This document shows, piece after piece, positions 11,994 through 30,047 of a DNA stretch of 64,000 nucleotides. How positions within the stretch are numbered: the first letter of the stretch is position 1; each line of letters begins with the position of its first letter. A program made the translations under genes and the position numbers. Below the pieces are notes generated by a model, which had not been told where the DNA came from, made no database searches, and was given only the letters and a program-made list of their open reading frames with translations. This DNA is from Leifsonia shinshuensis. GTDB lineage: Bacteria; Actinomycetota; Actinomycetes; Actinomycetales; Microbacteriaceae. The DNA lies in contig NZ_JAHHZQ010000003.1 in assembly GCF_022606355.1 (NCBI RefSeq), positions 682,001 through 746,000 on the forward strand. Reading direction: 5' to 3'.

Positions 11994-14870
11994 ATGAACG
12001 GCAACATCCCCCGACGCTCCACACTCACCACACGACAGCGCGTCCTAGCGGTCACCGCGACCGCCTGCGCGCTCGCCCTCCTCGGCGGCGGGATCGCCGC
12101 CGCCTCGACGATCGGCTTCGGCGACCAGCAGGTCGGCCAGAACTACCCGAACGGCGAGCAGGTCTCCGACAACCAGGTGATCCAGCCCGTCGGCACCCGC
12201 CTGATGACGCCGTTCGGAAAGCTGATGGGGTCCACCGTGAGCCCCGACGGCCGCTACCTCGTCGGCACGAGCACCGATCGCTCGGTCGACCTGCAGGTCT
12301 TCGACCTCGACTCGTACCAGCCCGTCGCCGCAGCCGGCACGCTCGCGGCCGCGTCGTTCGCGACCGCGGCCTCCAATGCGGGTTACGGCGCCATGAAGTA
12401 CCTCAAGATCAGCGACGGCACCGTCGGGCAGGAGGGCCCCGTCTTCTCCCCCGACGGCAAGTTCCTGTTCGAGCCGGTCGCGACAGGGATCGTCCGCTAC
12501 CCGTTCAACCCGGACGGCTCGCTCGGCGCCGGCACGAAGATCGCCATCCCGAACTCCGCAGCAGGCCAGCAGGCGCTGACCGCCGGGATGACGTTCTCGG
12601 CCGACGGCTCCACGCTGTACGCCGCGGTCAACGGCCAGAACACCGTCGTCGCGATCGACCCGGTCGCCGGCACGATCACGCAGACCTTCGCGGTCGGCAT
12701 CGCGCCGCGCCAGCTGACCTTCGTCGGCTCGCACCTCTTCGTGTCGAACGAGGGAGGCCGCCAGGCGGTCGCCGGCGACACCACGATGGGCTCCTACGGC
12801 ACCGCGGTCCCGGCCGACACGAACCTCGGCACCAGCACGACGGGCACCGTCAGCGTCATCGACACCGCGAACCAGGCGAGCGCCGTCGGGACGATCCCGG
12901 TGCAGCTGCACCCCACCGCGATGCACCTCGACGGCACGACGCTGTACGTGGCCAACACCAACAGCGACACCGTCTCGGTCGTCGACACCCGCACCGACCG
13001 TGTCGTGCAGACGTTCGCGACCCAGCCGTGGGCCTCCTCGACGACCGGCTACGAGCCGACCGCGATCACCCAGCAGGGCGACCACCTGCTCGTCTCGCTC
13101 GGCCGCGCCAACGCCATCGCGGTCTACAAGATCGACCGCAAGGACCCGCGCGACCCGGCGAGCTTCATCGGACTCCTTCCGACCGACTACTTCCCGGAGA
13201 ACGTCACCGCGGTGAAGGGCAGCATCGTCGTCACCAACACGCGGGGTATCGACGCACGCGGCCCGCTGCTGACCTTCACCAAGGGCCAGGGCACCACCCC
13301 GGCGACCGGGCACGGCACCCACTCCACGACGGCCTCGCTCACGAAGTTCACGCTGCCGGACGACAAGAAGATCCAGAAGTACACCGCGACCGTCTTCGCC
13401 CAGAACGGCTGGACCAGGAGCCCGCTCCAGAGCCAGGGAGACCAGGGCGAGAACCAGGACGGTCAGGGTCAGGACCAGCAGGCCAACGCCATCCCGAAGC
13501 GGATCGGCGAGCCGTCTCCGATCAAGCACGTGTTCCTCCTGGTCAAGGAGAACCGCAGCTACGACCAGTTGTACGGCGACATGAAGCAGGGCAACGGCGA
13601 TCCGACGCTGACGCAGTTCGGCGCCAAGGTCACGCCGAACCAGCACGCCCTCGCCACCCAGTTCGGGCTGTACGACAACACCTACGACATCGGCACGAAC
13701 TCGGCCGAAGGCCACAACTGGCTGATGCAGGGCGACAACCCGGCGTACACCGAGACCAGCGCCGGCGAGTACACCCGCTCGTACGACACCGAGGAGGATG
13801 TGCTCGGCCACCAGCGTTCCGGCTTCCTGTGGACGTCGGTGCAGTCCGCGGGCAAGACGGCGAAGAACTTCGGCGAGTTCGAGTACGGCGAGGGCAAGCC
13901 GGCCGGGGCGACCTGGCAGCAGTACTACTGCACGGCGCAGGGCGTGATGGCGGGCGGGAACCCGTCGACCCTGTTCGACCCGTCGCTCCAGTTGCACGCG
14001 AGCTCGGCCATCCCGTCGCTGAACGCGATCACCGACCCGAACGCTGCGCCGTTCGACCTCGCGGTGCCGGACATCTACCGGTACGAGACCTGGAAGCAGG
14101 ACTTCGAGAAGAACGGTCCGTCGAACCTCAACATGGTCTGGCTCTCGAGCGACCACACCGGAGGCACGGCCGACCCGGAGGCGCAGGTCGCCGACAACGA
14201 CCTCGCGGTCGGGAAGATCGTGGACGAGATCTCGCACTCCCGGTACTGGAAGGACTCGGCCATCTTCGTGGCGGAGGACGACACCCAGGACGGCGCCGAC
14301 CACGTCGACGGCCACCGCGCGCCCATCCAGGTGATCAGCCCGTACGCCGCCCACGGCAAGACCGTGAGCACGTTCTACTCGCAGATCAACCTGGTCCGCA
14401 CCATCGAGCAGATCCTCGGCGCCCAGCCGATGAACCAGAAGCTCGCCGCGGCGACGCCGATGACCGATGCGTTCACGAACAAGCCCGACCTGACCCCCTA
14501 CGCCGCGGTGCCCAACCAGGTGCCGCTGACGGAGGGCGTCGTCACCGCACCCGCGTGCGGCTACGACACGATGGGCGCGACCGGGCCCGCCGCCACGGCG
14601 ATCAACGCGGCCGCGGCGAAGGCAGCGGAGGTCCCGGCGGCCGAGCAGGCGACGGCGGCGAAGTGGCAGAAGTGGGCGGGGAAGCAGCACTTCACCGGAA
14701 CCGCCGGCCACCCCGCCATCCCCGACTACGACAACCCGCTGCTCATGAACCGATGGACCTGGTACCAGACGCACCACTGGACCTCGCCCTACCCGGGCGA
14801 CGCGAAGATCTACGGCCCGGACGACGTGCCCGGGATCGCCCCGGGGTCGACGAACCACGACGACCAGTGA
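11994..14870 (+). CDS. secreted YncE-like beta-propeller / phosphoesterase fusion
   Basis: The 958-residue protein has a basic N-terminus and signal peptide (VTATACALALLGGGIAAAS). Residues about 60-460 form YncE/SMP-30-like beta-propeller repeats (VSPDGRYLVGTSTDRSVDLQ, FSADGSTLYAAVNGQNTVVA, LDGTTLYVANTNSDTVSVVD). Residues about 508-870 are a phosphoesterase-family domain related to phospholipase C and acid phosphatases, beginning HVFLLVKENRSYDQLYGD and containing FVAEDDTQDGADHVDGHRAP with metal-binding residues. The two are joined by a Gln/Gly-rich linker. ATG 11994 follows GGGAAAGG. It is expected outside the cell, probably releasing phosphate or choline from phospholipids or phosphoesters; the substrate is not shown. 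Confidence 0.9.
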   Translation: MNGNIPRRSTLTTRQRVLAVTATACALALLGGGIAAASTIGFGDQQVGQNYPNGEQVSDNQVIQPVGTRLMTPFGKLMGSTVSPDGRYLVGTSTDRSVDLQVFDLDSYQPVAAAGTLAAASFATAASNAGYGAMKYLKISDGTVGQEGPVFSPDGKFLFEPVATGIVRYPFNPDGSLGAGTKIAIPNSAAGQQALTAGMTFSADGSTLYAAVNGQNTVVAIDPVAGTITQTFAVGIAPRQLTFVGSHLFVSNEGGRQAVAGDTTMGSYGTAVPADTNLGTSTTGTVSVIDTANQASAVGTIPVQLHPTAMHLDGTTLYVANTNSDTVSVVDTRTDRVVQTFATQPWASSTTGYEPTAITQQGDHLLVSLGRANAIAVYKIDRKDPRDPASFIGLLPTDYFPENVTAVKGSIVVTNTRGIDARGPLLTFTKGQGTTPATGHGTHSTTASLTKFTLPDDKKIQKYTATVFAQNGWTRSPLQSQGDQGENQDGQGQDQQANAIPKRIGEPSPIKHVFLLVKENRSYDQLYGDMKQGNGDPTLTQFGAKVTPNQHALATQFGLYDNTYDIGTNSAEGHNWLMQGDNPAYTETSAGEYTRSYDTEEDVLGHQRSGFLWTSVQSAGKTAKNFGEFEYGEGKPAGATWQQYYCTAQGVMAGGNPSTLFDPSLQLHASSAIPSLNAITDPNAAPFDLAVPDIYRYETWKQDFEKNGPSNLNMVWLSSDHTGGTADPEAQVADNDLAVGKIVDEISHSRYWKDSAIFVAEDDTQDGADHVDGHRAPIQVISPYAAHGKTVSTFYSQINLVRTIEQILGAQPMNQKLAAATPMTDAFTNKPDLTPYAAVPNQVPLTEGVVTAPACGYDTMGATGPAATAINAAAAKAAEVPAAEQATAAKWQKWAGKQHFTGTAGHPAIPDYDNPLLMNRWTWYQTHHWTSPYPGDAKIYGPDDVPGIAPGSTNHDDQ

Positions 14871-15847: not shown

Positions 15848-15907
15848 CGAGGGGCACGCACACGCCCCTATTCCTGGGTTTTGAGGGCGTTTGCGTGCCC
15901 CTCGGCG
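15848..15907. repeat. terminator-like palindrome, copy B, running into a coding 3' end
   Basis: The left arm starts CGAGGGGCACGCACACGCCC and the right arm ends GGGCGTTTGCGTGCCCCTCG, with an imperfect centre. It is one of four related palindromes in the window. Here the element overlaps the end of the phosphatidyltransferase gene, so the final residues HANALKTQE are encoded by the repeat. Confidence 0.75.
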
Positions 15908-16644
15908 GGTTCGGGCAGCGCGGCGGGCGCGGCGGGCGCGGCGTGCCTGCGGCGCGCGAGCCAGAGCGTGTCCCGGGCGAAGGACTCGAGGAGGAGGGCG
16001 AGGGCCAGGGCGACCAGCAGGCTGTCGAGACCGGGCAGGAGGCCGCTGGCGGCGACCGCCAGCGCGATCCCCGCGTACGCGGTCACCACCTTGCGCCAGT
16101 AGCGGTACGGCAGCGTCGCCCGCATCCACGGCAGCATCCACCCGGTCACGACGAACGCGTAGCGCAGCGCCCCGATCGCGATCGTCCAGAACCCGAGGGC
16201 GGGCGCGACGTACACGCTCAGCACCAGCAGGAGGAACGCATCGACCTCCATGTCGAAGCGCGCGCCGAGCTCGCTCGTCGACCCGGTGCGGCGCGCGACC
16301 CAGCCGTCCACCGCGTCGAGTGCCAGCGTGGGAACCACCAGGCCCACCAGCAGCGCGACCGGGATCGGGTCCGTGAACGACGCCACGACCAGCCCGGTGA
16401 TCAGCCCGACCAGGGCGGACCGCATCGAGGTCACCATGTTCGCCGGCCCGAACCGCTCCGACCTGCGGCGCTGGAGGCCGCGGATCAGCAGCGCGTTCGA
16501 GACCGCCAGATAGGCGACGACGGCGAGCCAGCCGGAGGCCGGAAGCGGCATCGTCCACCAGGCCGCCCCCAGGACCCCGGCGAGCAGCACCACCATCGCA
16601 CCCGCACCGGCCCAGCCGATCGCCGCGAGTTGAACCCTTTTCAC
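15868..16644 (-). CDS. CDP-alcohol phosphatidyltransferase family protein
   Basis: The 258-residue membrane protein carries a complete CDP-alcohol phosphotransferase motif at residues 110-135: D-AV-DG-WV-AR, then eight residues, G-ARF-D-MEV-D. About six membrane segments follow. These enzymes transfer a phospho-alcohol from CDP-diacylglycerol or a CDP-alcohol. GTG 16644 follows GAGG at 8 nt; the frame is open to 16773 without a better start. It is divergent from the seven-gene PTPS/GT4/sulfatase operon and probably contributes a lipid or polar-head transfer to the same pathway. Its last nine residues come from a palindromic repeat. Confidence 0.88.
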   Translation of the reverse strand: MKRVQLAAIGWAGAGAMVVLLAGVLGAAWWTMPLPASGWLAVVAYLAVSNALLIRGLQRRRSERFGPANMVTSMRSALVGLITGLVVASFTDPIPVALLVGLVVPTLALDAVDGWVARRTGSTSELGARFDMEVDAFLLLVLSVYVAPALGFWTIAIGALRYAFVVTGWMLPWMRATLPYRYWRKVVTAYAGIALAVAASGLLPGLDSLLVALALALLLESFARDTLWLARRRHAAPAAPAALPEPAEGHANALKTQE

Positions 16645-16754
16645 CTGCGCCTCGTGTCTCGTCTGTGAACGCGGCCGCGCTGTCAACCCTTGTGTCGACC
16701 GGCCTTGTCTTAACACGCTGCACGTGGACGGATGGTTCAGGAAGGGGTGATGAC

Positions 16755-17732
16755 GTGCTCGAAGCCATGGCATTCTGGGTCGAGGAACCCGGGGTCGGCG
16801 CTCTGCGACGCCTCCCCCTCGCCGCCCCCGCTCACGGAGAGGTGCTCGTCCGCACCCTGTTCACCGGTGTCAGCCGGGGCACCGAGTCGACGGTCTTCGC
16901 CGGCCGCGTGCCCGAGGGCCAGCGTGCGCTGATGCGCGCGCCGTTCCAGGAGGGCGAGTTCCCCGGTCCGGTGAAGTACGGCTACCTGAACGTCGGCGTC
17001 GTCGAGCAGGGACCTCCCGAGCTCACCGGCCGAACGGTGTTCACGCTGTTCCCGCACCAGTCGGTCTTCGTGGCGCCGGCCTCCGCCGTCGTGCCGGTGC
17101 CGGAGGCGGTGCCGCCTCGTCGGGCGGTGCTCGCGGGCGTGGTCGAGACGGCGGTGAACATCCTCTGGGACGCGGCGCCGCTCGTCGGCGACCGGATCAC
17201 GGTCGTGGGCGCCGGGATGGTCGGCTGCTGCGTCGCCCGGCTCGCCCGCGGCCTCCCTGGCACCGATGTGACGCTGGTCGACGTCGAGCCGTCGCGACGA
17301 CGGATCGCCGACGCGCTCGGCGTGCACGTCAGCGCACCGGAGTCCGCGCCGCACGACCGCGACCTCGTCATCAACACGAGCGGTTCGGAGGCCGGGCTGC
17401 GGCTCGCGCTCCAGACGGTCGTGACCGAGGGAGTGATCATCGAGGCGAGCTGGTACGGCGACCGCGGCGTGAGCCTGCCGCTGGGCGAGGACTTCCACTC
17501 GCGCCGGCTCACCATCCGCTCGAGCCAGGTGGGAGTCGTGCCGCCGGCCCGGCGTGATCGCCGCAGCACGACGGACCGGCTCGCGCTCGCGCTCGACCTG
17601 CTGCGGGATCCGGCGTTCGACGACCTGCTCACCGGGGAGTCGTCGTGGCGGACGCTGCCCGACATGCTCGCGCAGCTGTCCGCCGACCCGGGCGACACGA
17701 TCTGCCACACGATCGACTGGAGGGATGCCTGA
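16755..17732 (+). CDS. MDR-family dehydrogenase, first gene of PTPS/GT4 operon
   Basis: The 325-residue protein is a medium-chain dehydrogenase: an N-terminal GroES-like domain with the segment [13 protein letters not shown], then an NAD(P) Rossmann fold ([17 protein letters not shown]). The position of the catalytic zinc cysteine carries Ser-Arg-Gly-Thr-Glu instead, as in BchC-like members, so zinc-dependent alcohol oxidation is not assured. GTG 16755 follows AGGAAGGGG at 8 nt. The stop overlaps the next start by one base (TGATG). As the first gene of a seven-gene coupled operon it may oxidise or reduce the pathway intermediate handled by the PTPS and RibD-like proteins. Confidence 0.88.
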
Positions 17733-18130
17733 TGCCGTACACGGTCACCGTGCGCGACCACCTGATGGTGGCGCACAGCTTCACCGGGGAGGTCTTCGGC
17801 CCCGCCCAGCGCCTCCACGGTGCGACGTTCGTCGTGGACGCGACTTTCGGCGCCGACGAACTCGACGCGGACGGGCTGGTCGTCGACATCGGCCGGGCGA
17901 CCGCCGCGCTCGCGGAGATCACCGGTGCGCTGACGTACCGCAACCTCGACGACGAGCCGGAGTTCGCGGGGACGAACACGACGACGGAGGTGCTCTGCCG
18001 GGTGATCGCCGACCGGCTGGCGGCGCGCGCGGCGGCCGGGGAGCTCGGCCGCCCCACCGGGCTGACCTCCGTGTCGGTCACCCTGCACGAGTCGCACATC
18101 GCGTGGGCCGGCTATTCGAGGCCGCTGTGA
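17732..18130 (+). CDS. degenerate 6-pyruvoyl-tetrahydropterin synthase fold protein
   Basis: The 132-residue protein aligns with PTPS/QueD along its length (MVAHSF for the first zinc His, QRLHGATF for the HGH motif, [14 protein letters not shown], and Glu in [11 protein letters not shown]). Key residues differ. His15 and His29 are kept, but the third zinc ligand is Ala31 (HGA for HGH), the catalytic Cys four residues before His29 is Ala25, and the Asp-His of the LDHxxLN motif is Thr-Tyr (LTYRNL). The C-terminal Glu that binds the pterin-type ring remains. It is therefore unlikely to catalyse the standard reaction; it may bind a pterin-like ligand or do different chemistry. GGAGGG precedes the ATG. 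Confidence 0.85.
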
Positions 18131-19191
18131 ACGGCGGCCGGGCGGTCTTCTTCGTCGTCCCCGACGCGATCGACGACCCCGACCGCGTCAGCGGCGGGAA
18201 CCGCTACGACCAGCGCGTGCGCGACGGCCTCCGCGCCGACGGCTGGGCGGTGCGGATGGTGCTCGTCACCGACCGCGGCGCCGGCCCGACCGCCGGGGCG
18301 CTCGCGCAGCTGCCCGAGAACGCGCTGGTGCTCGTCGACGGGCTGCTCGCCACGCGCGAACCGGCGGCGCTGACGGTGCACGGCGCACGCCTGCGCCTCG
18401 TCGTCCTCGTGCACCTGGTCGCCGACGCGCCGACCGACGACCAGACCGCGGCCCTGCGCGCCGCGCGACGCATCATCGCCACCAGCGACTGGACGCGATC
18501 CGAACTGCTGGAGCAGGACGCCGCCGACCCGCACCGCATCGTCGTCGCCCATCCCGGAACCGACCCGGCGCCCGCGACCCGGCCATCCGCCTCGGGAGGC
18601 CGCCTGCTGTGCGTCGCGACGGTCGCGCCGCACAAGGGCCAGGACCTTCTCGTGCGCACGCTGATCGGCTTCGCCGACCGCGACGACTGGACGTGCAACG
18701 TCGTCGGCTCGCTGCGCGTCGACCCCGACTTCGTGGAGGCGCTCCGCGCGGAGATCGACGCCGTCGGACTGGCCGGCAGAGTGCGGTTCACCGGTGTGCT
18801 CACGGGTCGAGCGCTGGAGGCCGCGTACGCCGACGCCGACCTGATGGTGCTGCCCTCCCGCACCGAGAGTTACGGCATGGCGGTCGCGGAGGCGCTCGCG
18901 CACGGCGTCCCCGTGCTCGCGACGGCGGTCGGAGGTCTCCCCGAGGCGATCGCGGTGCCGGGAGCCGCGGTGCTCGTGCCGCCCGACGATGTCTGGGCGC
19001 TGCACGTCGTGCTGCAGCAGTGGTGGACCGACCCCGCGCTGCGGAGCGCCAGGGCGACCGCCGCGTTCCAGGCGCGTGCGGCCGGGCGGTCGTGGAGTAC
19101 GACGACGTCGATCGTCGCTGCAGCCCTCGACGCGGCGCTCGCGGACGTCGGGCGGACCGACCCTGGCCGAACGGAGGCCGTGCCCTCATGA
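18127..19191 (+). CDS. glycosyltransferase family 4 (GT-B)
   Basis: The 354-residue enzyme has the GT-B two-domain layout, with [22 protein letters not shown] opening the nucleotide-sugar domain and the family E-x7-E motif in [16 protein letters not shown] at about residues 256-264. GTG 18127 overlaps the PTPS stop (GTGA). It should transfer a sugar from a nucleotide donor to the pathway intermediate at the cytoplasmic face. No signal or membrane segment is seen. Donor and acceptor are unknown. Confidence 0.9.
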
Positions 19192-20006
19192 GCGAACTCC
19201 TGGAGGTCAGCGTCGACTGGCTCGCGTTGCGCGAGGCGGAGGACGCCCGCGCGCGGTCGGCCGCGCTCGCGGACGCCGTGCCCGGACTGCTCGGCGCCGG
19301 TCCCGTCACGGTGCACGACCTCGGCAGCGGCACAGGATCCATGATGCGCTGGCTCGCACCGCGCCTCCCCGGGCCGCAGACCTGGGTGCTGCACGACTGG
19401 AACGCGAGCCTCACGGCGCGCGCGTCGGAGGGGCCGCGCCCGAACGACCGGTCGGGGCGGCCGGTCGAGCTCCGCTCGCGCATCGGCGAGCTCGACCGGC
19501 TCGACACGTCCGCGCTGAGCGGGGCGTCGCTCGTGACCGCCTCCGCACTGCTGGATGTGCTGACGGCGGCCGAGGCGCACGCCATCGTCGATGCGTGCCT
19601 GGTGGCGGGCGCGCCCGTGCTCCTGTCCCTCAGCGTCACGGGCGACGTCGCGCTCACGCCGTGGGACCCGCGCGACGTCCGATTCGCGCGCGCGTTCAAC
19701 GCGCACCAGCGCCGGGAGGTCGCCGGCCGCCGGCTCCTCGGCCGCTACGGCGCCACCCTGGTCGGCGGGCTGTTCGGGATGGCCGGCTGGCGCGTCCGCA
19801 CGGCGCTCACGACCTGGCGGCTCGATCGGCGGGAGCCGCTCCTCCTCGAGGAGTGGTTCGACGGCTGGACCGGCGCAGCGGTCGAGCAGGAGCCCGGGCT
19901 GCTCCGCGAGGCCGCAGAGTACCGGGAGCTGCGGTGGGCGCAGCGGTCGCGCGGGGAGCTCGTGGCGACGGTGTACCACCTCGATCTGCTGGCGTGGCCG
20001 CGATGA
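19188..20006 (+). CDS. class I SAM-dependent methyltransferase
   Basis: The 272-residue protein has SAM motif I in VHDLGSGTGSMMRWLAPRL (residues about 40-58), an acidic strand-2 end in WVLHDWN, and ASLVTASALLDVLTAAEAHA for motif IV. Later residues (RGELVATVYHLDLLAWPR) complete the fold. It overlaps the glycosyltransferase stop by 4 nt and the next start by 4 nt, so it belongs to the same operon product. The methyl acceptor (sugar, pterin or lipid head) is not predictable. Confidence 0.87.
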   Translation: MSELLEVSVDWLALREAEDARARSAALADAVPGLLGAGPVTVHDLGSGTGSMMRWLAPRLPGPQTWVLHDWNASLTARASEGPRPNDRSGRPVELRSRIGELDRLDTSALSGASLVTASALLDVLTAAEAHAIVDACLVAGAPVLLSLSVTGDVALTPWDPRDVRFARAFNAHQRREVAGRRLLGRYGATLVGGLFGMAGWRVRTALTTWRLDRREPLLLEEWFDGWTGAAVEQEPGLLREAAEYRELRWAQRSRGELVATVYHLDLLAWPR

Positions 20007-21088
20007 CCCTGCACGCGGCGGAGGCCGGGACGGCGGGCGCGGCCGGGACGGCAGGCGCGGCCCGAAGAGCAGGCGCGGCCCGGAGAGCAGGCGCGGCCGT
20101 GAAGCCGCGCAGCGCCGAGAGCACGACCCTGCCGGCGGCGGTCCGCCTCCGGCGGCTGGTCGCCTCCCACCGGGCGCGTGTCGTCGTCCGGACGCTCGTC
20201 GGCGCGGCGGTGCTCGTCGCGATCGTCGCGCGGGTCGGCGCCGGGCCGTTCCTCCACGGCCTCCTCAGTCTCGACGCCTCCGCCGTCGCCGCATCGCTCG
20301 CGCTCTTCGCCGTCGCGACCGCGGCCGCGGCGTGGCGCTGGACGCTGATCGCCCGCCGGCTCGGCGCCTCCCTGCGCTGGCGGACCGCCGTCGGAATGTA
20401 CTACCGATCCCAGCTGGTCAACACGGTGCTCCCGGGCGGAGTGATCGGGGACGTGCAGCGGGCGGTCGATCACGGCCGTGCGTCCGCGCAGGCCGGGGGC
20501 GCGGGAGTCGGCGCGGCGGCCCGCGCCGTCGCGATCGAGCGCATCCTGGGTCAGAGCGTGCAGGTCGTGCTCTCCCTCGCCGTGCTGGCCGTGGTCGGCG
20601 ACGAGTACGAGGGCGTGCTGCTCCCCACCGTCGGCATCGCGCTCACCGCGGTCGCGGTCGGCGGCGTCGCCGTGACGATCGGCAGCCGGCGGGTCCGCAG
20701 CCTCCTGCGCAGGGAGGCCGGCGAGCTCCGCGCCGGGCTCGGCTCGCTGCGCGTCGGCGCGCAGGCCGTCGTCGCCTCCATCGTCGTCTTCGGCTGCCAC
20801 CTCGCCATCTTCGCGATCGCGGCGACCGCCGTCGGAGCGTCCGTCCCGCCCGATCGCCTGCTCGCTCTCGCGATGGTCGTCCTGCTCGCCGCCTCCCTCC
20901 CGTTCAACGTCGGCGGCTGGGGGCCGCGCGAGGGCGCGGCCGGCTGGGCGTTCGCGGTCGCCGGGCTCGGAGCGGCGACGGGGGTGTCGGCGGCCACGCT
21001 GTACGGCATCCTCGCCTTCGTCGGCATCCTGCCCGGAGCGATCGCCGCAGTGTCGTCTGCCATCGTGCGGAGGAGACTGCGGTCATGA
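20003..21088 (+). CDS. LPG-synthase-TM / UPF0104 family membrane protein
   Basis: The 361-residue protein has about eight membrane segments and the family hallmarks NTVLPGGVIGDVQRA and LPFNVGGWGPREGAAGWAF. Proteins of this family act as flippases or as the membrane part of lipid aminoacylation enzymes; no soluble transferase domain is present here. The N-terminal 35 residues are a low-complexity Ala/Gly/Arg tract encoded by four 18 bp repeats (20027-20098). Placement after a glycosyltransferase and methyltransferase and before an extracellular sulfatase-like enzyme suggests it moves a lipid-linked product across the membrane. Confidence 0.87.
   Translation: MTLHAAEAGTAGAAGTAGAARRAGAARRAGAAVKPRSAESTTLPAAVRLRRLVASHRARVVVRTLVGAAVLVAIVARVGAGPFLHGLLSLDASAVAASLALFAVATAAAAWRWTLIARRLGASLRWRTAVGMYYRSQLVNTVLPGGVIGDVQRAVDHGRASAQAGGAGVGAAARAVAIERILGQSVQVVLSLAVLAVVGDEYEGVLLPTVGIALTAVAVGGVAVTIGSRRVRSLLRREAGELRAGLGSLRVGAQAVVASIVVFGCHLAIFAIAATAVGASVPPDRLLALAMVVLLAASLPFNVGGWGPREGAAGWAFAVAGLGAATGVSAATLYGILAFVGILPGAIAAVSSAIVRRRLRS
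20027..20098 (+). repeat. four 18 bp tandem repeats inside a coding sequence
   Basis: Units at 20027, 20045, 20063 and 20081 share the core GCaGGCGCGGCC and differ in the first six bases. Each adds six residues (GTAGAA or RRAGAA) to the N-terminus of the membrane protein. The length is a multiple of three, so changes in copy number would not break the frame. Confidence 0.85.
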
Positions 21089-21780
21089 ACGACCTGCCGT
21101 ACGTCACCCTCAGCTGCTGCGTCTCGCTCGACGGCTACCTGGACACCGCGCGGCCGCCCAAGCTCGCGCTGTCGAACGACGCGGACTTCGATCGGGTGGA
21201 CGAAGTGCGCGCCCAGAACGACGTCATCCTGGTCGGCGCGCGGACCGTGCGGCGCGACGATCCGCGCCTCCTGGTCCGCAGCAGCGAGCGGCAGGATCGG
21301 CGGGAGGCTGCAGGGAGGTCGCGCACACCGTGGAAGGCGACCGTCACCGTGTCGGGCGACCTGGACCCCTCGGCTCGGTTCTTCACCCTGGGCGACACCA
21401 CGAAGCTCGTCTACAGCCCGCGCCGTGCGGCGGACGGCCTCCGTCGGCGGCTCGGCGACCTGGCGACCGTCGTCGCGCTCGACGACGACGTCCGGATGGT
21501 CGACCTCCTCGGCGACCTCGGCGCCCGCGGTGTCCAGCGGCTCATGGTGGAGGGCGGCGGCACGACCCTCACCGAGTTCCTCGCCGCCGAGCTCGTCGAC
21601 GAGCTGCAGGTCGCGATCGCACCGTTCTTCGTCGGCGACCCCGCCGCTCCGCGGTTCGTCGGGCCCGCGGACTTCCCCTGGACCAGCGACCGGAGGGCCC
21701 GGCTCGCGGAGGCGCGGCCGATCGGTGACGTCGTGCTGCTGCGCTACGCGCTCTCCGGGCGGTTCGTCGAGTCGCCATGA
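21085..21780 (+). CDS. RibD C-terminal / DHFR-like reductase
   Basis: The 231-residue protein is a RibD reductase-domain relative: SCCVSLDGYLDT at the start, VGARTVRRDDPRL (the TVRxDDPxL NADPH/substrate segment) and VQRLMVEGGGTTLTEFL. Such enzymes reduce the ribose of ribosylamino-pyrimidines on the way to riboflavin or methanopterin. It is coupled by ATGA to both neighbours. Together with a PTPS-fold protein in the same operon it suggests a pyrimidine- or pterin-derived building block. It lacks the deaminase domain of full-length RibD, so it is not a housekeeping ribD. Confidence 0.88.
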   Translation: MNDLPYVTLSCCVSLDGYLDTARPPKLALSNDADFDRVDEVRAQNDVILVGARTVRRDDPRLLVRSSERQDRREAAGRSRTPWKATVTVSGDLDPSARFFTLGDTTKLVYSPRRAADGLRRRLGDLATVVALDDDVRMVDLLGDLGARGVQRLMVEGGGTTLTEFLAAELVDELQVAIAPFFVGDPAAPRFVGPADFPWTSDRRARLAEARPIGDVVLLRYALSGRFVESP

Positions 21781-23438
21781 TCCGCCGGACGAGCAGCACA
21801 CCCCGCAGGGGCCGGGCGCGGCGCCCGCGCTCTCGAGCGTGGTCCGCTGTCGTGACGGTGCTCAGTGCCGTCACCGTGTTCGTCGCCGCCGTCGCACCGG
21901 GGCTGATCGACTCCGGTTCGCCGCTGGCGCTCGCGCGCCTGCCGCTCGAGTGCCTGCTCGCGCTGGTGGCGTTGATCCTGCTGCCGTGGCGCTGGGTGCG
22001 CCGCGCGATCGCGGTCCTGGCGGCTGTGCTCCTCGTGGCGGCGGCGATCCTCGCAGCACTGGACCGCGTCTTCCTCTCGACAGTCGGGAGGCCGTTCGAC
22101 GTCGTGTCCGGCTGGTCGGAGCTCGTGGACGGTTACGGCGTCGTCAGCGACTCCGCCGGATCCCTCGGGGCACTCGCCCTCCTCGTCCTCATCGGCCTCC
22201 TGATCGTCGCCGCGGTCGTCGCCGTCGCGGCCTCCCTGCTGCACCTGGCCCGTGTGCTCGGCCGGCGTCGGAGGGCCAGCCTGATCGGAGCGTCGGTCCT
22301 CACCGCCGGCTGGCTGGTGCTCGCGCTCGTGGGCGCGCAGGTGGTCGCGGGCGAGCCCGTCGCCGCGGCGGACTCGATCACGGCAGCGGCCTCCACCGTC
22401 GCCCAGGTGGAGGTCTCGGCGCGCGACCGTGCGGTCTTCGACCGGTCGGCGGCGAGCGACCCGTACTCGCGGCTGCCCGCCTCCGACCTCCTCACCGGCC
22501 TGAAGGGCAAGGACGTCCTCGTGGTGTTCGTCGAGAGCTACGGGCAGGTGGCCGTGCAGGGCACACCGTTCGCTTCCGGAGTGGACTCCGTCCTCCGCAG
22601 CGGTGACGCGGAGCTCGCGGCACACGGGTACTCCGAGCGCAGCGCCTTCCTCACCTCCTCGACGTTCGGCGGCATCAGCTGGCTCGCGCACTCGACGCTG
22701 CAGACCGGACTCTGGGTCGACTCGCAGCAGAAGTACGACCAGGTCACGGCCACGACGCGGTTCACGCTCAGCGACGCCTTCCGCAAGGCCGGCTGGCGGA
22801 CCCTCAGCGACGTGCCGTCGGACACCCGGCCGTGGTCGATCGGGAGCTCGTTCTACCACTTCGGCACGCAGCTGAACGCGAAGAACGTCGGCTACCGCGG
22901 CCCCGCCTTCAGCTACGCGCGGGTGCCGGACCAGTACACGTGGGCGTACCTCCAGAAGCACGAGCTCGGGGTGCCGCACGCCCCGCTGATGGCCGAGATC
23001 GACCTGGTGTCGTCGCACACCCCGTGGACGCCGCTGCCCCGGCTGGTCCCGTGGGACGCCGTCGGCGACGGCTCGGTCTACGACCCGCAGCCCGCGGAGG
23101 GCCTCCCGCCGAGCGTCGTCTGGCAGAGCCCGCAGCACGTGCAGCAGCTCTACGGCCAGTCGATCGAGTACACGATGGGTTCGCTGTTCTCGTTCCTGAC
23201 CACGTTCGACGACCCCGACCTGGTGCTCGTCGTGCTGGGCGACCACCAGCCGGCCACCGTCGTCAGCGGCGTCGGCGCGAACCACCAGGTGCCGATCAGC
23301 ATCATCTCGAAGGACCCGACGGTGATCGACCGGATCGGCTCCTGGAAGTGGGAGCCCGGGATGCTGCCGTCGCCGCGCGCGCCGGTGTGGCGGATGGACG
23401 CGTTCCGCGACCGATTCCTGGCCGCCTACGGACCGTGA
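21777..23438 (+). CDS. membrane-anchored sulfatase/LtaS-like enzyme
   Basis: The 553-residue protein has four to five N-terminal membrane segments (residues about 25-190) and an extracellular alkaline-phosphatase-superfamily domain. VLVVFVESYGQVAV supplies the first metal site, SSTFGGISWLAHST the likely nucleophile region, and LGDHQPATVV the second metal-binding Asp-His. This layout matches LtaS and other phosphoglycerol or phosphoethanolamine transferases rather than soluble sulfatases. As last gene of the coupled operon it may add or remove a phospho-head group on the exported product. The start overlaps the reductase stop by 4 nt. Confidence 0.87.
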   Translation: MIRRTSSTPRRGRARRPRSRAWSAVVTVLSAVTVFVAAVAPGLIDSGSPLALARLPLECLLALVALILLPWRWVRRAIAVLAAVLLVAAAILAALDRVFLSTVGRPFDVVSGWSELVDGYGVVSDSAGSLGALALLVLIGLLIVAAVVAVAASLLHLARVLGRRRRASLIGASVLTAGWLVLALVGAQVVAGEPVAAADSITAAASTVAQVEVSARDRAVFDRSAASDPYSRLPASDLLTGLKGKDVLVVFVESYGQVAVQGTPFASGVDSVLRSGDAELAAHGYSERSAFLTSSTFGGISWLAHSTLQTGLWVDSQQKYDQVTATTRFTLSDAFRKAGWRTLSDVPSDTRPWSIGSSFYHFGTQLNAKNVGYRGPAFSYARVPDQYTWAYLQKHELGVPHAPLMAEIDLVSSHTPWTPLPRLVPWDAVGDGSVYDPQPAEGLPPSVVWQSPQHVQQLYGQSIEYTMGSLFSFLTTFDDPDLVLVVLGDHQPATVVSGVGANHQVPISIISKDPTVIDRIGSWKWEPGMLPSPRAPVWRMDAFRDRFLAAYGP

Positions 23439-23447
23439 GCGCGGGCT

Positions 23448-23507
23448 CGAAGGGCACGTAAGCGCCCCTTCCCGCGGGTTTTAGGGGCGTTTGCGTGCCC
23501 CTCGGCG
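23448..23507. terminator. terminator-like palindrome, copy C
   Basis: The left arm CGAAGGGCACGTAAGCGCCC pairs with a right arm ending GGGGCGTTTGCGTGCCCCTCG, with a short GGGTTTT centre. It follows the sulfatase gene and precedes the convergent MFS gene. The right arm is identical to that of copy D at 29985-30047. Confidence 0.8.
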
Positions 23508-29442: not shown

Positions 29443-29979
29443 ATGCGGAAGATCGTGGTCTACGAGTTGCTGTCCCTCGACGGGGTGGCCGAGGACCCCG
29501 ACGCGTTCATCGTCGGCTGGGACGACGACATGGACGCCGAGCTCGGCGCCGTGATCGGGACGCAGGGTGACGTGATCCTGGGGCGCCGCAGCTACGACGA
29601 GTGGTCCCGGTTCTGGCCGACGAGCACGATCGAGCCGTTCGCCACGTTCATCAACGGGGTGGCGAAGCACATCGTCACGTCGACGCCGCTCGACGGGCGG
29701 TGGGCGAACGCCACTGCCGTCGACGGCGACCCTGTCGCGTTCGCGCGGCGGCTGAAGGAGGGCGACGGCGGCGACATCGGGGTGCACGCCAGCATCTCGG
29801 TCGCGCGCACGCTGCTGGCGGCCGGCGTTGTCGACGAGCTGCGGCTCGTGATCGCGCCCCGGATCGCCGGGGCCGGACGCCGGCTTCTCGACGGCCTCCC
29901 GCCGCTGCGGCTCGAGACGATCCGCAACGTCACCTCGGCGACGGGGTATCTGCTCGTGGACTACCGCATCGCGCACTGA
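29443..29979 (+). CDS. DHFR/RibD-like family reductase
   Basis: The 178-residue protein has the DHFR-like opening RKIVVYELLSLDGVAEDPDA, the phosphate/nicotinamide segment VILGRRSYDEW and a late GVHASISVARTLLAAGVVDEL followed by a LLVDYRI strand. Members of this family (YwjB/YyaP-like) are presumed NADPH-dependent reductases of unknown substrate. GAGGAGG precedes the ATG, and TAGGGT at 29414-29419 may be its -10. It is distinct from the RibD-like gene at 21085 and has no operon partner downstream. Confidence 0.87.
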   Translation: MRKIVVYELLSLDGVAEDPDAFIVGWDDDMDAELGAVIGTQGDVILGRRSYDEWSRFWPTSTIEPFATFINGVAKHIVTSTPLDGRWANATAVDGDPVAFARRLKEGDGGDIGVHASISVARTLLAAGVVDELRLVIAPRIAGAGRRLLDGLPPLRLETIRNVTSATGYLLVDYRIAH

Positions 29980-29984
29980 CCACC

Positions 29985-30047
29985 CGCCGAGGGGCACGCA
30001 AACGCCCCTAAGTGCGTGTTTTAGGGGCGTTTGCGTGCCCCTCGGCG
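29985..30047. terminator. perfect palindrome, copy D, between convergent genes
   Basis: Two exact 27 nt arms (29985-30011 and 30021-30047) flank a 9 nt loop. The inner ends TAA/TTA and the GGGGCGTTTGCGTGCCCC block make it a strong bidirectional hairpin. It is the most perfect of the four related palindromes and lies 6 nt after the reductase stop and 12 nt before the HxlR stop. Confidence 0.85.

Follow-up and report, generated by a model that had tools for sequence, protein, structure and literature searches.

A conserved actinobacterial gene module around a catalytically altered PTPS-fold protein, with a possible origin of its product in ring-opened GTP

We analyzed a 64,000-nt stretch of the Leifsonia shinshuensis genome (contig NZ_JAHHZQ010000003.1, positions 682,001 to 746,000; here called the window, with coordinates counted from its first letter), in which seven plus-strand genes at 16755-23438 form a compact operon beside a divergent eighth gene. 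Starts and stops read from the sequence give successive overlaps of 1, 4, 4, 4, 4 and 4 nt, the first being a stop and start fused as TGATG. These coordinates agree with an earlier note, made from the sequence alone, which had described seven genes overlapping by 1-4 nt and a divergent CDP-alcohol transferase. In order, the operon encodes a dehydrogenase of the medium-chain dehydrogenase/reductase (MDR) type, resembling BchC (16755-17732, GTG start); a protein with the 6-pyruvoyltetrahydropterin synthase (PTPS) fold, or T-fold, of the SCO6650 type (17732-18130); a GT4-family glycosyltransferase (18127-19191, GTG start); a predicted class I S-adenosylmethionine (SAM)-dependent methyltransferase (19188-20006); an LPG_synthase_TM, or flippase-like, membrane protein (LPG-TM; 20003-21088); a RibD_C reductase (21085-21780); and a predicted membrane-anchored phosphotransferase of the LtaS/EptA type, in the alkaline phosphatase superfamily (21777-23438). 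The CDP-alcohol phosphatidyltransferase gene lies on the minus strand, from 15868 to about 16644, where its 5' start was picked by a codon-usage gene-calling script.

Matches above the Pfam cut-off were obtained for the CDP-alcohol transferase (CDP-OH_P_transf, PF01066, 43.8 bits), the PTPS-like protein (PF01242, 83.2 bits), the glycosyltransferase (PF13692, 87 bits), the LPG-TM protein (PF03706, 103.4 bits) and RibD_C (PF01872, 135.9 bits). The MDR protein fell below it (23 versus 31.8 bits), and its best NCBIfam model, bchC, scored 52.1 bits, far below cut-off. For the methyltransferase and the LtaS-like protein of the window there were zero Pfam or NCBIfam matches, and both were classed by predicted structure. 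A consensus scan for promoters and terminators found nothing.

A profile of SCO6650-type proteins, run on genome contigs, confirmed at least 575 stretches of the collection that encode the PTPS-like protein. The best 80 of these, all actinobacterial, served as the locus set, and their tallies lean toward query-like sequences; gene borders in these relatives, drawn by a simple codon-usage script, are approximate, and several loci end at contig ends, all 80 being kept in the counts. By tblastn (E 1e-4), MDR and PTPS-like genes were matched in all 80 loci, GT4 in 77, the CDP-alcohol transferase and the methyltransferase in 72 each, LPG-TM in 71, RibD_C in 55 and the LtaS-like gene in 25, while a hidden Markov model (HMM) gave a strong RibD_C match in 46. 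Searched as controls, eight genes located elsewhere in the window matched 0, 0, 0, 0, 1, 1, 3 and 5 loci, and six of the eight had no match at E 1e-10. A chance neighborhood is ruled out by these controls (0-5 of 80 loci versus 71-80 for the six core genes): the module is conserved and real. At thresholds of E 1e-30 for MDR and E 1e-3 for PTPS-like, both genes were also found in an identical set of 24 among 60 genomes, the Leifsonia genome included. The single coupled, co-conserved pathway proposed in the earlier note is borne out by these results; the LtaS-like gene is the least constant member.

Within the genus, MDR and PTPS-like genes were present in 15 of 27 other genomes. A 2.6-Mb genome of the same genus (G413) has a PTPS-like remnant with two stops at C1:1923228-1923485 and no MDR match. 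Judged from approximate gene starts, overlaps recur among the 80 loci in 53 of 70 same-strand PTPS-GT4 pairs and 51 of 63 GT4-methyltransferase pairs, and are rarer at the methyltransferase-LPG-TM (33/63), MDR-PTPS (20/64), LPG-TM-RibD_C (10/30) and RibD_C-LtaS (3/6) junctions. A phylum-wide search returned 29 loci of other genomes, with MDR adjoining the PTPS gene in 25; the remainder comprised one locus truncated at a contig end, where GT4 is present (L012), and three Cys-bearing, QueD-type genes without MDR. Natural fusions of GT4 and methyltransferase into a single protein were seen twice (L198, 8653-10557; L191, 7394-9322).

Among solved structures, the PTPS-like protein is nearest to SCO6650 of Streptomyces coelicolor (PDB 3d7j), with 181.6 bits across 130 residues. 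We assigned catalytic positions by alignment with two proteins that retain the Cys and the Asp-His pair (L017 and L029). All 81 PTPS-like sequences share H15, A25, H29, A31, Y69 and E120: two zinc-binding histidines (H15 and H29) are kept, the third-ligand position is Ala31, Ala25 replaces the catalytic Cys and Tyr69 replaces His, with Asn (35), Thr (32), Ser (13) or Asp (1) at position 68, so that neither the three-His zinc site nor the catalytic triad is present. The protein is like QueD/PTPS (COG0720) in its T-fold family and in the pterin-anchoring Glu near the C terminus (Glu120), but unlike it in having no catalytic Cys, Asp-His pair or third zinc His. Plain QueD identity is excluded by the loss of these active-site residues, and the catalytically altered PTPS fold described in the earlier note proves to be fixed across the set and to have a solved homolog. 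Conservation is otherwise strong, with 67 of 132 positions at ≥95%, including the residues of the FGPAQxLHGAT motif of SCO6650-type proteins.

A distant family, f18, helps to order these changes. The run RibD_C-MDR-PTPS-GT4 is intact in all seven f18 genomes examined, where it is also accompanied by a methyltransferase, and the f18 PTPS-like protein still has its HGH zinc motif and lacks the Cys and the Asp-His pair. Because these proteins keep the zinc motif yet are already without the other residues, the PTPS-like protein has probably changed function rather than undergone recent decay; the triad would have been lost, or never present, early in the module, and the zinc site would have gone later.

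Clustering of the neighbor genes in the 80 loci revealed GTP cyclohydrolase II (GCH II; RibA) in 55 and a creatininase in 27. The RibA proteins differ at a switch residue that we take to correspond to Tyr105 of Escherichia coli and Met120 of SCO6655, where Tyr presumably leads to 2,5-diamino-6-ribosylamino-4(3H)-pyrimidinone 5'-phosphate (DARP) and Met to the formamide, formamidopyrimidine (FAPy). Tyr-type RibA occurs in 30 loci, with RibD_C in 30/30 and creatininase in 0/30. RibA with Met, His, Gln or Cys occurs in 25 loci, with creatininase in 25/25 and a divergent RibD_C in 9; a strong RibD_C is found in one and missing from the other 24 (a correction to the earlier note). The 25 loci in which no RibA was found have RibD_C alone (15), creatininase alone (2) or none of the three (8). 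If the switch assignment is right, FAPy-making clusters would carry an amide hydrolase and DARP-making ones would not. In one locus RibA and RibD_C are fused in a single 435-aa protein (L198:11496-12803). All 14 cluster-RibA genomes tested have at least two RibA matches; six of seven f18 genomes have one, and the seventh has one full and two weak matches. The co-clustering of RibA suggests that the substrate is a pyrimidine derived from the GCH II reaction. The ribosyl-pyrimidine origin offered as one option in the earlier note is backed by this co-clustering, by the fusion and by the partition of RibA forms with creatininase.

The role of the creatininase is less direct. Four of these proteins scored 135-144 bits with the MftE model versus 29.7-40.4 bits with ArfB (NF033501), neither over its cut-off, and because the fit to MftE is better than that to the archaeal deformylase ArfB, deformylation of FAPy is suggested by linkage. 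A gene family called in 10 loci ('Unk12') lies on the strand opposite the creatininase gene and was interpreted as a shadow of that gene. In a tree of 31 genome copies of RibA plus 11 added rows (seven rows being refetched cluster genes, and L198 forming a long branch), Tyr-type and non-Tyr cluster RibA fall in different lineages, the latter with the genomes' other RibA or RibBA copies. With the two types in separate lineages, few independent events are represented. A clade composed of Tyr-type cluster genes alone was rejected, as two copies located elsewhere in their genomes fall inside it.

The best NCBIfam model for the window's RibD_C is TIGR01508, the archaeal 2,5-diamino-6-ribosylamino-pyrimidinone 5'-phosphate reductase, at 128.9 bits (equivalog cut-off 186.45); its closest solved chain is 5xux, a 'Conserved protein' (109.3 bits). 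We searched for this RibD_C in 17 genomes. Sixteen were drawn from the 34 loci in which a strong RibD_C is missing, and 13 of these 16 have a 50-58% homolog elsewhere in the genome. The other three (L060, L070 and L117) are also the only ones tested whose locus holds a divergent RibD_C. In two of the copies outside the clusters (L155:7867-9000 and L157:7371-8486) a deaminase domain is fused at the C-terminal end, opposite to its usual place in RibD, and the L155 copy has a Tyr-type RibA one called gene away.

Taken together, the operon may belong to a conserved actinobacterial pathway leading from ring-opened GTP to a sugar-bearing, methylated and membrane-handled compound, a reading to which we give a probability of roughly 0.5. 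Linkage and homology suggest the first two steps, in which GCH II would convert GTP to DARP and RibD_C would turn the ribosyl chain into a ribityl chain, like the archaeal reductase. The following steps are proposed from protein families: the PTPS-fold protein would grip the 2-amino-4-oxo-pyrimidine edge through the invariant Glu120 and, together with the MDR dehydrogenase, would remodel the side chain or close a ring without the PTPS zinc or Cys-Asp-His triad, after which glycosylation by GT4 and methylation by the methyltransferase would follow.

The Leifsonia genome is a particular case. Its cluster has RibD_C and the LtaS-like gene and is without RibA and creatininase, and its one RibA is a canonical fused RibBA with Tyr, located beside a canonical RibD among the riboflavin genes; five of five Microbacteriaceae relatives tested likewise have a single RibA. 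Because only this one RibA is available, the operon in this lineage would draw on the riboflavin pool, with step 1 running through the housekeeping RibBA only. The genome's single creatininase was considered as the missing cluster member and rejected, being a true MftE (293.6 bits, over cut-off).

Several observations weigh against a GTP-derived pathway, or against parts of it. The RibD_C score lies under the TIGR01508 equivalog cut-off, and the cluster creatininase scores best with MftE, its ArfB scores staying below that equivalog cut-off of 180 bits. Eight loci have no RibA, creatininase or RibD_C (some are cut by contig ends), and the RibA/creatininase partition tracks a few clades, such that its Fisher value of 3e-16 overstates independence and is not a probability. 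Among six RibD_C regions outside the clusters, a deaminase domain is fused or adjacent in four, and another RibA lies beside or one called gene away in two; both of these RibA have the Tyr residue and fall with the Tyr-type cluster RibA in the tree. The RibA-RibD_C pair can thus sit in the cluster or apart from the core, and at least one genome, a Streptomyces (L073/L155), holds such a pair plus a non-Tyr RibA with creatininase. Because the pair occurs apart and this genome has both forms, the two RibA routes need not share one intermediate: convergence on DARP is one possibility, use of a different pyrimidine by the non-Tyr clusters a second. Our confidence in the pathway was lowered slightly on these grounds, namely that the pair is separable, that both forms co-occur and that the routes need not meet. 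The scarcity of the LtaS-like gene also weighs against the proposal, and f18 adds a further point, given below.

The same data bear on two quite different explanations. The module might make an ordinary phosphoglycolipid with no GTP substrate, RibD_C being a generic DHFR-like reductase, the PTPS-like protein a structural relic, and RibA and creatininase docked modules. GT4, the CDP-alcohol transferase and LPG-TM are indeed envelope-type families, as the LtaS-like protein is by fold, the Leifsonia genome has 18 RibD_C-family matches, and the RibA-RibD_C pair is not confined to the core; but RibA accompanies 55 of the 80 clusters and its partners partition cleanly, RibD_C already accompanies MDR-PTPS-GT4 in f18, and the conservation of the PTPS-like protein shows no decay, which makes this explanation improbable. 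A new redox cofactor, or a flavin- or deazaflavin-like vitamin variant, instead of a surface compound seems more improbable still. GCH II and an archaeal-type reductase do belong to the synthesis of riboflavin and F420 precursors, but no deazaflavin or lumazine synthase was seen among the conserved families annotated, which are a part of all families, the glycosyltransferase, the CDP-alcohol transferase and the membrane proteins vary little in their presence, and the occurrence of the module in little more than half of the other genomes of the genus suggests a dispensable product.

The AlphaFold model of the methyltransferase (predicted local distance difference test (pLDDT) 94.7) and its Foldseek matches indicate a class I SAM methyltransferase fold, while a PDB sequence-profile search gave weak matches only. 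The LtaS-like protein was modeled with pLDDT 86.4, and Foldseek placed LtaP/LtaS at the top, with EptA and MCR-1 within the first nine; the predicted structure has an alkaline phosphatase-superfamily fold after N-terminal membrane helices, supporting the LtaS-like transferase named in the earlier note. A PDB search with a profile of four LtaS-like sequences returned no match. Across 23 sequences, E253, S294 and H414 are invariant and T296, D489 and H490 nearly so. The window protein thus resembles the LtaS/EptA phosphotransferases in predicted fold and in candidate metal and nucleophile positions, but differs in having no Pfam or NCBIfam match, although a Micromonospora homolog does match Pfam Sulfatase. 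CDP-alcohol transferases share the motif D-x2-DG-x2-AR-x8-G-x3-D-x3-D, and its residues (D110, D113-G114, A117-R118, G127, D131 and D135) are invariant in seven of seven aligned sequences.

With a CDP-alcohol transferase, a flippase-like protein and an LtaS/EptA-fold enzyme, attachment to lipid is plausible from the families present, and is the weakest step of the proposal. The CDP-alcohol transferase would couple the product, or a polyol derived from it, to phospholipid, the LPG-TM protein would carry it across the membrane and the LtaS/EptA-fold enzyme, where present, would transfer a phospho-head group outside. The fullest version, an undescribed class of membrane glycolipid made by many actinobacteria, whose head is a glycosylated, methylated, GTP-derived ribityl-aminopyrimidine (or a pterin closed from it), with two GCH II lineages recruited and the window lineage diverting the riboflavin-enzyme pool, is doubtful at present, at perhaps half the weight of the pathway itself. 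Of the pterin- or ribosyl-pyrimidine-derived glycolipid put forward in the earlier note, the pyrimidine origin is supported by the RibA evidence, whereas a lipid product, and a pterin ring in place of an open pyrimidine, stay hypothetical.

A soluble, exported pterin or pyrimidine glycoside, with no lipid and with the membrane proteins serving export or an adjoining envelope function, is a tentative alternative that we rate level with the glycolipid. Limipterin-type or cyanobacterial pterin glycosides would be comparable products. Consistent with it, most loci are without the LtaS-like gene, and the genes found most regularly, MDR, PTPS and GT4, encode members of soluble-enzyme families. The f18 loci can be read both ways. 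In L189-L195, genes for FolB (dihydroneopterin aldolase) and an acyltransferase lie divergent beside RibD_C-MDR-PTPS-GT4, as found by Pfam searches of the L189 copies and by BLAST homologs in the six other fetched loci. The f18 run with its methyltransferase, next to FolB, would suit a soluble glycoside, and the FolB and acyltransferase neighbors would also suit a pterin route, the further point against the open-pyrimidine proposal; yet the acyltransferase adjoins FolB, and a pterin ring and a lipid may both be possible. Also opposed to a soluble product are the near constancy of the CDP-alcohol transferase, its intact motif and the frequency of LPG-TM, together with one locus (L071) whose called CDP-alcohol transferase gene sits between RibA and MDR, shares their strand and touches both.

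Part of this system is already known from S. coelicolor. Spoonamore and colleagues (2006, 2008) reportedly found SCO6650 to be without zinc, triad and PTPS activity, and SCO6655 to make FAPy through a Met switch residue. The gene order in six Streptomyces loci (L073, L082, L100, L105, L107 and L109) is PTPS-GT4-MT-LPGTM-creatininase-RibA (MT, methyltransferase), which would match the S. coelicolor number span SCO6650-SCO6655, and seven other loci have a divergent RibD_C ahead of the creatininase. The window shares with this region a PTPS-like protein whose closest solved relative is SCO6650 itself, but has RibD_C and the LtaS-like gene and no RibA or creatininase. In archaea, the early steps toward riboflavin and F420 are carried out by ArfA (GCH III), ArfB (creatininase family) and ArfC (RibD_C family). 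The predicted order in the bacterial clusters (GTP to FAPy, deformylation, ribosyl-chain reduction) is alike, and RibD_C fits the archaeal model best; unlike the archaeal route, the clusters use GCH II rather than GCH III, their creatininase stays under the ArfB cut-off and their later genes are not riboflavin genes.

SCO6655 is named in a genome-scale model paper (PMC2853524). Among the open-licence papers listed, with subscription journals mostly outside this scope, we found none on the cluster, the PTPS-like reaction or its product. As far as these searches show, the conserved cluster, the partition of RibA, creatininase and RibD_C, and the RibA-less form in the window are additions to the S. 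coelicolor work. The RibA switch residue and partner gene suggest specific intermediates, making the orphan function of SCO6650-type proteins directly testable, and a lipid product, if confirmed, would represent new head-group chemistry in common soil bacteria.

Other features of the window lie around the module. A second RibD_C-family gene is located at 29443-29979 (49.7 bits), and a 958-aa protein at 11994-14870 combines a phosphoesterase domain with beta-propeller-like (lactonase, PD40) matches. A 43-bp hairpin repeat with 14-bp arms and a 15-bp loop occurs at 15855-15897, 23455-23497 and 29995-30037, and bounds the divergent module on either side. At 15855, each arm of the copy differs by one mismatch from the searched arm, and the hairpin extends into the CDP-alcohol transferase gene at its 3' end. 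The strict hairpin pattern is found at 14 places in the genome versus 0 for the control, and is possibly a dispersed terminator-like repeat.

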